64,000 nucleotides of DNA from Bacteriovoracaceae bacterium (GTDB lineage: Bacteria > Bdellovibrionota > Bacteriovoracia > Bacteriovoracales > Bacteriovoracaceae). Below are positions 32,193-35,915 of the stretch, one piece after another. The DNA is taken from NCBI GenBank assembly GCA_025210745.1, contig JAOARC010000047.1:1-64000 (forward strand), written 5' to 3'. Each line of letters begins with the position of its first letter. Within the stretch, counting starts at the first letter, position 1. The translations under genes were made by a program, and so were the position numbers. The notes below the pieces were generated by a model, which saw only the letters and a program-made list of their open reading frames with translations, was not told where the DNA came from and did no database searches.

Positions 32193-32236
32193 TATATATA
32201 GGCATGACTCAAGGAATGGGTCATAAAGGGAATAAT

Positions 32237-33580
32237 ATGAAAAGGATTTCACTGTTAGTCATAATGAGCGCTTTATTAGCTTCTTGTGGTAAGGAATTGG
32301 CGCAAATTCAGGGAGCTCCACAATCACAAAACCAAGCGGGTATAATTGCTAGCTGTACAACAAAGGAAGTTGCTCAGTCTTTAGCAACTACTCATGGTTT
32401 CAAATACAGAGTTATTAATAAAAAAGCTAAGCTTATTGAATTTGTTGGTATCTCATCTAAAGAGCTTAAAAAACTTCTACCTAAAGCAAAATTAACTCAA
32501 AATATTGTTTACGATAAACCTGTTGTAAAGTCCGATCAATTTGCAGCATCTAGTGTTTCTAATACACCCTTTTATGGTGCTCACACTCCTTCTTACAGAA
32601 ATTCGCAAAGTGCAAACTACTTTGATCATTTATCTCAAATAGAAGCTGCAAGCTTAGGCCAATACCAAGGTCAAGGTGTAACAATTGCTATTGTAGACAC
32701 AGGTGTTTACTATAACCACCCTCACTTAAGTCCAAATATTAAAACAAATCCAAGCGAGTCTCATGGATCAAATGCTGATCATATTGATAATGATGGCAAT
32801 GGTTTAGTAGATGATTATGCTGGATGGGATTTTTATAATAATGATGCATACCCTATTGATGATAATGGACATGGAACTCATGTTGCAGGACTTGCGGCAG
32901 GTACTTTAGGAGGTATCGCACCAAAAGCTAAAATTCTACCTATTAAGGTTTTAAACTCACAAGGATCAGGAGATCTTGGAACTATCGCTCAAGGTATTCT
33001 TTATGCTATTGATATGAATGCTGATATTATTAATTTATCTCTTGGAGGAAACGTTTCTACAATTACTTCTGATGTTCAAAATCTAATTAACGTTGTTGTT
33101 AGTGGCAAATCTCATAATACTCTAATGATCACAGCAAGTGGAAATGGCGGATCTGATGGCGTGGGAGATTGTAATGATGCTGCTCCTGTTTACCCAGCTA
33201 ATATTAATAGTAATAATGTTATATCAGTTGGTGCTGTTAATAGTTTTAACAGATTAACTAGCTATTCTAACTTTGGGCAAAATACTGTGCATATAGCAGC
33301 ACCAGGTGGAGATAGTTTCACAGGAGGACTTCTTTCAACAGATATTCCCTACTGCAATGGACCATGTAATGAAGATAGCCATGCTTATACAAATAAAATG
33401 GGAACAAGTATGGCCACACCAATTGTCTCCGGCCTAGCAGCCCTAATCAAAAGTAAATATCCTAACTATACTTATTTGCAAATAAGAGAACTCATATTAA
33501 ACACTGGCGTTTATAGCAGTGACTTGGATGGATTTATTCAATCAAAAAGTGTGGTAAATGTTAAAAATGCCTTACAATGA
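32237..33580 (+). CDS. Subtilisin-like serine protease, lipoprotein
   Basis: 447 residues from the ATG at 32237. Lipoprotein signal peptide with lipobox LLAS-C (Cys17), a propeptide-like region (about 40-130), then a peptidase S8 domain with Asp154 (AIVDTGV), His212 (NGHGTHVAGLAAG), oxyanion Asn303 (ASGNGG) and Ser391 (GTSMATP). It has no long C-terminal extension. It is exported and lipid-anchored, and probably digests protein at or outside the outer membrane. A sigma-54 promoter lies just upstream. Its last 9 bases overlap the convergent trypsin-like protease gene. Confidence 0.93.
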   Translation: MKRISLLVIMSALLASCGKELAQIQGAPQSQNQAGIIASCTTKEVAQSLATTHGFKYRVINKKAKLIEFVGISSKELKKLLPKAKLTQNIVYDKPVVKSDQFAASSVSNTPFYGAHTPSYRNSQSANYFDHLSQIEAASLGQYQGQGVTIAIVDTGVYYNHPHLSPNIKTNPSESHGSNADHIDNDGNGLVDDYAGWDFYNNDAYPIDDNGHGTHVAGLAAGTLGGIAPKAKILPIKVLNSQGSGDLGTIAQGILYAIDMNADIINLSLGGNVSTITSDVQNLINVVVSGKSHNTLMITASGNGGSDGVGDCNDAAPVYPANINSNNVISVGAVNSFNRLTSYSNFGQNTVHIAAPGGDSFTGGLLSTDIPYCNGPCNEDSHAYTNKMGTSMATPIVSGLAALIKSKYPNYTYLQIRELILNTGVYSSDLDGFIQSKSVVNVKNALQ

Positions 33581-34495
33581 CAACTGATATAACTGATCAA
33601 TAATAACTTCAGATTTTAAGATAAGCTCTTGCCTACCTTCTTCTGAGTCATCAGTACAGTTTTGTCCTTGATTATTACATTTATTAGATTCAAAACACCC
33701 TTTTGTAACATTATAAACATAATCCTGTTTTCCAGCAAAAAGCAAACCTAATACATCATGATTTTTTTTACTGAAAATAGGAGAACCAGAGCTTCCACCA
33801 TAAGTATCGACATTTGCCATAAAAAAGTTTTCACTCGTTTTTAATATCTTAGCACCTTTTATATATTTCTTAGGTAGTCCAGAGGGATGACTAATATTAT
33901 AAAGCTCTGTTTTATTAAGATAATTAAAATCGTAGCTAAGTTTTGTTATATAAGTATGAGCAACTTTGCGTTTTAACTTTATAATTGCAAAATCTTTTTG
34001 ATAGTCCAAATGACCATATAGAACTCTACTACACTCATATATATTTTTTGCAGGAATTGCCGTAAGATTAATTTTTTCTTTTTTACTATATTCATAATTA
34101 AAAACCCATAATGAGTCTTTGCATAATGGCGTGTTTTCTAAATGAACAGTCCCCTCTTTTTCCTGAATACAATGAGCAGCTGTTAACATTATATCATCAG
34201 CAATCATAAAGCCCGTACAATCAGATATTGCCGGCTGAGAAGCATACTTTTCAAAAGAACATATATTGCCAAAGTCTTTAGAGCTAAGGCTACGGATATT
34301 TAAAATCTTTGCCGTATTATTTGAGGAAAACAAAACATCATCTTTATAAAACCTCGCCGCTACGGATAAAGAGTTCTTCTTAACCCTAGCATCTTTTACT
34401 TTATATATATCTATCCTACTATCTACTCCATAAATAACATGCTCCTTAGCAAGTAAAGAAGTCATCCCTAAAAGTAGCATCATCAGCCATTGCAT
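33572..34495 (-). CDS. Exported trypsin-like serine protease
   Basis: 307 residues with a short signal peptide (MQWLMMLLLGMTSLLA). Chymotrypsin-fold catalytic residues: His108 in MLTAAHC, Asp168 in KDFAIIKL, and Ser236 in GGSSGSP. The order and the HPSGLPKKYIKGAK block resemble the glutamyl-endopeptidase (V8, S1B) group. Many cysteines suggest disulphides and an extracytoplasmic location. It is convergent and overlapping with the S8 protease gene, so the two exported proteases form a tail-to-tail pair. Confidence 0.88.
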   Translation of the reverse strand: MQWLMMLLLGMTSLLAKEHVIYGVDSRIDIYKVKDARVKKNSLSVAARFYKDDVLFSSNNTAKILNIRSLSSKDFGNICSFEKYASQPAISDCTGFMIADDIMLTAAHCIQEKEGTVHLENTPLCKDSLWVFNYEYSKKEKINLTAIPAKNIYECSRVLYGHLDYQKDFAIIKLKRKVAHTYITKLSYDFNYLNKTELYNISHPSGLPKKYIKGAKILKTSENFFMANVDTYGGSSGSPIFSKKNHDVLGLLFAGKQDYVYNVTKGCFESNKCNNQGQNCTDDSEEGRQELILKSEVIIDQLYQLSL

Positions 34496-34696: not shown

Positions 34697-35881
34697 ATGA
34701 ATAAGAAACTATTAATTTCATCACTCTTTCTTTGCTATGGAGCAATGGCCCAGGTAAGCCCTCTATCTGGCTATCAAACAACAAATATATCAATTTCTGA
34801 TGCTGAACAAGTTTGGAAAAATATGAAAACAAGCTTTATTAAAAAAAGTGAGTGTTTTAATAGGGCTCAAAGCTGGACTTATGATACAGAAAAAAAGTTT
34901 GGTTTTAAGGGAAAAAAAATTCTAATTCACTATTCATATAAATACAATCAAGAGCTTAGTGCAAAGTGGGGATTTCATATTGCACCCGTTTATAATGTTG
35001 AAGGTGAGGATATTGTCTTTGATAAAGGCTTTGGATCTTGGCTTCACACACCTATTACAAAAAAAATGTGGGAAGAAAAATTTCTTGGAGCAGGAACAAG
35101 TAAACTTGTAGAAAAGAGAATTAAACTTGATAAAAAAAGATCTGAGCTTAATCAAGACCTTAAAAGTCTTGACCCAGAAGGAGACTTTTACTTTGAAAAA
35201 AGACTTAAAATTAAAAAGAAGTTACAAGAAGTAAAAGAAGAAATGATATATTTTGGTGTAACTGATTCTGAGCTAAAAAAGCAAAAACCAAAGAAAATAG
35301 AACAATTAGAAAGAACTATTTCTTTTTTAAAAGAAGAATTAAGTAAAGTAAAAACAACTGCTATAAAAAATTCTGTATCTTATCAATTAAAAAATGCTAA
35401 AAGCTTGCTCAAAAAAGTAAAAAGAAATTTGAATTATGCTGCTCATATTCAATGTAAGAAAATTGATAGTATTGAAGAGCTAGACTTTGGTCAAACAAAA
35501 GCTTGGTGCTATATTCAAGAAGTTAGCCAATACTATTGGGGAGTACCTCAGTTAAGACTATTAAACTATGGGCAGTACTCTAGACCATATGAAGATGAAT
35601 TATCATCAAAGAGAATTGCTGGCGAAGCTTATATAATGGATAAGTTTAATATGGAACAGGTTTGGATCGCAAGAAAACAAGCCTTTGGAAGAGAATATAA
35701 GGAAATTTGGAAAAAAGAGTACGATCAAAAAGAATACGAAAAGAATAAAGATAAGATTGAAAAGAAAAAGGACAAAGAAAAACAAAGAGCTAAAAGAGCA
35801 AAGAAGAGAGCTCTAGAAAAAGAACAAAGAAAAAAAGAAAGAGAGCAAAGACGAAGAAATAGAAGAAACTCGAGAAACTAA
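34697..35881 (+). CDS. Exported protein-glutaminase-like enzyme with coiled coil
   Basis: 394 residues with a signal peptide (MNKKLLISSLFLCYGAMAQ). Residues 45-125 match the protein-glutaminase (protein deamidase) core in order: Cys53 in ECFNRAQSW, His94 in WGFHIAPVYN, and Asp109 in IVFDKGF, a Cys-His-Asp triad that deamidates glutamine side chains in proteins. A lysine-rich coiled-coil insertion (about 140-245) and a second domain with Cys and Trp (IQCKK, AWCYIQEV, YYWGVP) follow. The last 60 residues are extremely K/R/E-rich. A GGGAG ribosome site precedes the ATG. Catalysis is inferred from the triad. The long basic tail is odd and could bind nucleic acid or surfaces. Confidence 0.7.
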   Translation: MNKKLLISSLFLCYGAMAQVSPLSGYQTTNISISDAEQVWKNMKTSFIKKSECFNRAQSWTYDTEKKFGFKGKKILIHYSYKYNQELSAKWGFHIAPVYNVEGEDIVFDKGFGSWLHTPITKKMWEEKFLGAGTSKLVEKRIKLDKKRSELNQDLKSLDPEGDFYFEKRLKIKKKLQEVKEEMIYFGVTDSELKKQKPKKIEQLERTISFLKEELSKVKTTAIKNSVSYQLKNAKSLLKKVKRNLNYAAHIQCKKIDSIEELDFGQTKAWCYIQEVSQYYWGVPQLRLLNYGQYSRPYEDELSSKRIAGEAYIMDKFNMEQVWIARKQAFGREYKEIWKKEYDQKEYEKNKDKIEKKKDKEKQRAKRAKKRALEKEQRKKEREQRRRNRRNSRN

Positions 35882-35886
35882 ATAAG

Positions 35887-35915
35887 AAGCCCCATTTTAT
35901 CATAGATGGGGCTTT
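35887..35915 (+). terminator. Intrinsic terminator after deamidase-like gene
   Basis: AAGCCCCAT (35887-35895) pairs with ATGGGGCTT (35906-35914) around a 10-base loop, followed by a short T run. It begins 6 bases after the stop codon. Confidence 0.85.

Follow-up and report, generated by a model that had tools for sequence, protein, structure and literature searches.

The window analyzed here is a 64,000-nucleotide stretch of contig JAOARC010000047.1 from a Bacteriovoracaceae bacterium, and positions 34697-35881 of its forward strand carry an ATG-initiated open reading frame of 394 residues. Coordinates, strand, start and length agree exactly with the first-pass annotation, and the frame is under selection as a protein: the one further genome examined from this genus has an ortholog that aligns over its full length at 57% identity, and the two genes show 130, 113 and 213 differences at first, second and third codon positions, respectively. 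The product had been described as exported, which its sequence bears out: residues 1-18 (34697..34750, + strand), read directly from the translation, form a predicted Sec-type signal peptide in which MNKK is followed by a hydrophobic core and the AxA motif A16-M17-A18, with cleavage predicted between A18 and Q19. A lipobox is absent on the same direct reading, because C13 is preceded by L-F-L. The mature protein has a computed charge of about +33 and a pI of 9.7; as a possible exit route from the periplasm, the genome encodes the type II secretion secretin GspD, detected above cut-off.

Directly 3' of the stop codon lies a terminator-like hairpin (35886..35915, +; one found against 0.7 expected in shuffles), beyond which the next gene is on the opposite strand. 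An operon was therefore rejected, and the gene is taken to stand alone, closed by this terminator-like element. Upstream are a gene for a divergent, exported trypsin-like serine protease of 307 residues (33572..34495, -; Pfam Trypsin_2, E=2e-12) and one for a subtilase of the S8 family with a lipoprotein-type signal (32204..33580, +; Pfam E=6e-55), so that the block is a set of exported enzymes acting on proteins. A phage or defence origin of the gene was also considered and rejected, there being no match in PADLOC or PHROGs.

A protein glutaminase domain with an invariant Cys-His-Asp set

The first half of the mature protein (residues 19-128; 34751..35080, +), delimited by Pfam, invariant columns, AlphaFold2 and Foldseek, contains the candidate catalytic residues. 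Pfam family PF18626 (Gln_deamidase_2, protein glutaminase) matches residues 44-128 with 32.7 bits (E=8.9e-8), above its curated gathering score of 25 bits, so that the blocks previously read as typical of protein glutaminase, ECFNRA (52-57), FHIAPV (93-98) and VFDKGF (107-112), with C53, H94 and D109, are more than a chance resemblance. Across 60 relatives, eleven residues are invariant (C53, R56, W60, K74, W91, H94, P97, D109, W125, C253 and C271), and an alignment of 24 relatives yields a nearly identical set; conservation among relatives, which had been suggested as a check, thus leaves all three triad residues unchanged.

The closest structural counterpart in the PDB is the protein glutaminase of Chryseobacterium proteolyticum (EC 3.5.1.44, also PF18626; PDB 2zk9 and 2ksv, pro-form 3a54 and 3a56), which is likewise secreted. 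C53, H94 and D109 correspond to Cys42, His83 and Asp103, the triad of the known enzyme (PMC3498931), with a Cys-His spacing of 41 in both proteins and a His-Asp spacing of 15 in the window protein versus 20 in the C. proteolyticum enzyme, whose core K, W, W and R also align with the window family. Searched against the PDB, a profile of the family retrieved the protein glutaminases 8z3i (FBPG from Flavobacterium sp. 316, the best profile match; E=3.7e-7) and 3a54 (E=1e-3), in alignments that pair C, R, K, W, H and a later Trp and reach into the pro-region; the single window sequence gave nothing meaningful in this search, and matches came only with the family profile.

In sequence, the window protein is far from the characterized protein glutaminases, with 14-17% identity to the C. 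proteolyticum enzyme over aligned residues. NCBIfam model NF040782 (protein-glutamine glutaminase of the Chryseobacterium type) does not match it, and scores 25 bits against L001, a paralog in the same genome, where the equivalog cut-off is 250. This divergence, combined with lineage-specific additions, is what a degenerate, non-catalytic relative that keeps its fold as a binding protein would display. Such a loss of activity seems extremely improbable to us, given that the catalytic and neighboring residues are all kept and that the catalytic half is the part best conserved in the ortholog (75% identity, whereas the insert has 48% and the tail 30%).

Predicted structure

The AlphaFold2 model of the window protein (pLDDT 90, pTM 0.81) places a helix at C53, followed by strands 73-79, 93-101 and 104-107 and, after a set of inserted helices, strands 253-255 and 271-277. 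Structure prediction had been proposed as a check of the enzyme class, and the first six Foldseek matches of the model in the PDB are all protein glutaminases (2ksv, 8z3i, 2zk9, 3a56 twice and 3a54; probability 0.99-1.00, E 3.6e-3 to 2.8e-2). The protein is thus predicted to have the papain-like α/β fold of the solved protein glutaminases, and Pfam, the PDB profile search and AlphaFold2/Foldseek all point to the class originally assigned to it. TM values are low (0.2-0.4, and 0.41-0.42 against the mature enzyme), which, like the weak E-values, would be expected of a domain split by a long insert.

As a check on this effect, the insert-less relative L057 (305 residues) was also modeled (pLDDT 90.8). 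Its best match is 8z3i (E=9e-10), followed by pro-protein-glutaminase 3a56/3a54 (E 5e-9 to 9e-9), with TM 0.49-0.59; the aligned region exceeds 300 columns and includes the pro-domain. L057 therefore matches FBPG over its whole length, N-terminal domain included, whereas in the window protein that domain is missing and an insert and a tail are added. The pro-like N-terminal domain, residues 18-96 in L057 (protein L057:5680-6594), is predicted to form a small β domain, and its structure list also contains OB-type folds such as RPA70N beside pro-protein-glutaminase.

Both the Cys-His-Asp set and the core fold are common to transglutaminases and the LapG protease (PMC4214742), and N-acetyltransferases and other proteins of the fold do appear in the Foldseek list of the window model, much weaker and far down, after the six glutaminase matches. 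The same machinery could hence serve another reaction, either transglutaminase-type cross-linking or site-specific proteolysis of the papain-like or LapG kind. We consider this decidedly unlikely: the top profile and structure matches are all protein glutaminases, and no transglutaminase or papain-like peptidase family of Pfam is above cut-off, PF18626 being the only one that passes. The glutamine-deamidating SseI and the C-terminal domain of Pasteurella toxin have the core fold and the Cys-His-Asp set, rank lower in the Foldseek lists and have no sequence-family match to the window protein. SseI and Pasteurella toxin act inside animal cells, to which nothing here points.

Helical insert, conserved second half and basic tail

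Comparison with insert-less paralogs, spacing tables and the AlphaFold2 model locate an insert at residues 129-250 (35081..35446, +), where about 120 extra residues separate W125 from C253. The insert is basic, with 31 Lys/Arg and neither Cys nor Trp, and is predicted to be a four-helix block (122-157, 165-185, 190-217 and 221-243). It had been called a coiled-coil insertion; alignment and model support a helical insert, but not a coiled coil, since heptad tests on the individual helices gave p=0.06-0.36.

The region that follows (residues 251-341; 35447..35719, +), defined by alignments and spacing tables and including the YIQEVSQYYWGVPQLRLL block, was first taken for an added second Cys/Trp domain. 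C253 and C271 are indeed invariant, but they lie in what is the second, conserved half of the family domain: it is common to the whole family, including paralogs of about 195-310 residues, and insert-less members run from W125 to the first late cysteine in only 11-23 residues, which identifies the two parts as halves of one domain. Exactly three cysteines, C53, C253 and C271, occur in the mature chain, an arrangement that would provide a single catalytic thiol plus one disulfide, the latter likely between C253 and C271.

The chain ends in the K/R/E-rich tail of the original description, here 53 residues long (residues 342-394; 35720..35878, +) on the basis of AlphaFold2, composition and comparison with the ortholog. 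It contains 15 K, 11 R and 8 E, has a net charge of about +15 and is predicted to form one long helix (344-393). The tail evolves fast, as its identity to the ortholog indicates, and K/R/E-rich tails recur in four insert-bearing members (the window protein, L055, L062 and L174) although their sequence is not conserved. The nearest ortholog (L055/L006; 485 residues, genome ERR2094166_bin.32, same genus) shares the insert and has a longer tail of about 140 residues that is basic at its end. The window gene and the ortholog have the same neighbors (trypsin-like, polB and methyltransferase genes), but a second insert-bearing copy (L055:2896-3831, 311 residues) that directly follows the ortholog has no counterpart at this place in the window. 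Family, triad, export, insert and tail of the first reading are therefore supported, and its second domain and coiled coil are not. That reading did not include the missing pro-like domain, the genome-wide expansion of the family or the trypsin-like protease next door.

Absence of the pro-domain

A pro-domain is a trait of the characterized enzymes, not part of the PF18626 domain. For the characterized enzyme, PMC6132073 describes a 114-residue pro-sequence ahead of 185 mature residues. Known protein glutaminase is synthesized in a pro-form and becomes active on proteolytic removal of a pro-sequence (PMC12791059, PMC13298967) that shields its pocket (PMC13298967), and another protein glutaminase is partially active with the pro-sequence still attached (PMC12791059). 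The window protein has an export signal and only 34 residues from that signal to C53, and so lacks the pro-domain of about 114 residues found in the C. proteolyticum enzyme; unlike the latter, it has the intradomain helical insert of about 120 residues, the 53-residue basic tail and the conserved C253/C271. Most relatives keep an N-terminal pro-like domain. The insert-less paralogs L003 (304 residues, same genome) and L057, for example, have an export signal and the two-half domain with its 11 invariant residues, and their N-terminal domain can be aligned to the pro-domain in pro-protein-glutaminase.

Among 113 deduplicated sequences classified by a scripted threshold, none of the 19 insert-bearing proteins has a pro-domain, compared with 81 of the 94 insert-less ones (Fisher p=2e-13); L149, which falls just under the threshold, has an insert and no pro-domain, bringing the tally to 20 of 20. 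In the tree, 19 of the 20 insert-bearing members group in a single clade (bootstrap 93, SH-aLRT 80), and their sister is the L003 group, nearly all of which carry a pro-domain. L002, an insert-bearing paralog from the genome of the window, lies outside this clade. The insert changes state twice on the tree, but a topology that unites all 20 is not rejected (p-AU 0.257). As the insert arose only once or twice, the mutual exclusion of insert and pro-domain is only suggestive, and it was rejected as independent evidence despite the Fisher value. Apparently pro-less and insert-less L077, L103 and L127 probably look so because of start-site effects or contig ends; members that genuinely have neither pro-domain nor insert also exist, such as L001, L018 and L187. 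A pro-less, insert-less subgroup (L018, L180, L183, L184 and L185) has 31 residues between the late cysteines and a Cys-containing end.

Protease neighborhood

The divergent trypsin-like gene is paired with an insert-bearing glutaminase gene in six genomes of four genera (G000, G001, G016, G036, G077 and G078; loci 33572-34495 of the window, L006, L010, L028, L147 and L148). A subtilase gene accompanies the pair in all six, and a methyltransferase or polB gene is near it in several. No insert-less member has a trypsin-like gene as direct neighbor among the loci examined.

This pairing, the pro-form and proteolytic activation of the known enzyme, the absence of a pro-domain from all 20 insert-bearing relatives and the 31 Lys/Arg within the insert are what could be expected if the enzyme were latent, its cleft blocked by the helical insert until the exported trypsin-like neighbor cuts it. 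On balance we judge this unlikely. The tree reduces gain of the insert and loss of the pro-domain to one or two changes, so that their link is not independent; many insert-bearing members have no trypsin-like neighbor, and the genome contains at least five other trypsin-like matches. The block, moreover, may be inherited gene order, since the subtilase is also part of it, as is a tRNA methyltransferase in several genomes; in view of the methyltransferase, the neighborhood was rejected as proof of function.

Distribution of the family

The genome of the window contains three further PF18626 members above cut-off, L001 (195 residues), L002 (257 residues) and L003. Nearly all named relatives belong to Bacteriovoracaceae/Halobacteriovoraceae or to further Bdellovibrionota assemblies, including ones named Bacteriovorax stolpii. 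Of 369 genomes from the phylum, 179 match a 60-member profile, strongly so in a subset of genera, and an insert-bearing profile has full-length matches in genera g1, g10, g14, g16, g36 and g59 of the family. Family members occupy at least nine separate places in the single-contig genome G136; exported protein-glutaminase relatives are greatly expanded in G136, G112 and G077. Some relatives (L078:5635-7311, L128:1883-3316 and L109:5614-6945) have an added module of C-terminal repeat units of about 50 residues, e.g. RVIDNNDDDTGRVV...YDLPASRFSL.

Proposed function

Sequence and model support the family assignment, the fold, the active-site set, the export signal, the absence of a pro-domain and the position of the insert, and we think that the product is probably an exported protein-glutamine deamidase (protein glutaminase). 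Its chemistry, substrate, place of action and the role of insert and tail we infer as follows. Once the protein has been exported by Sec, His94 together with Asp109 would activate Cys53 for attack on the side-chain amide of a protein glutamine; ammonia would be released and the acyl-enzyme hydrolyzed to leave glutamate. The second half, with its probable Cys253-Cys271 disulfide, would complete the fold, and the four-helix insert would sit at the junction of the two halves. Insert and positively charged tail probably tether the enzyme to a partner or to negatively charged surfaces, and the insert may replace the lost N-terminal pro-domain as a control point for access or activity.

The Bacteriovoracaceae lineage is known for predators. 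The enzyme likely acts outside the cell, and lineage and copy number make prey proteins a plausible target. It could instead modify the envelope or periplasm of its own cell, anchored to the cell's own surface by the basic tail and helices: no domain for targeting another cell was recognized, the gene stands alone with its terminator-like hairpin, and the other copies in the genome carry export signals too. We regard this as possible, if somewhat unlikely, as the expansion in a predator lineage seen in G136 fits outward action better and the neighbors are a subtilase and a trypsin-like protease. Very unlikely, in our view, is a more specific scheme in which a predator clade has swapped a removable pro-domain for an intradomain helical block and relies on the trypsin-like neighbor to activate the enzyme in or at the prey; if true, it would be a new way of holding a protein deamidase latent, used in predation.

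In summary, an exported protein deamidase remains the preferred reading of the window gene. The domain family is known; what is new is the architecture, which dispenses with the pro-domain and adds a helical insert inside the domain as well as a basic tail. None of the papers found links protein glutaminase to Bdellovibrio-like organisms, a review and a comparative study of these organisms do not mention it, and no paper was found that ties protein deamidation to bacterial predation. Protein glutaminases are industrial enzymes, which makes naturally pro-less variants of practical interest. For the organisms themselves, the pro-less variant raises the question of how cells avoid harm from their own protein-modifying enzyme, and the exported protein-glutaminase family of Bacteriovoracaceae/Halobacteriovoraceae offers a testable set of candidate outward-acting enzymes.
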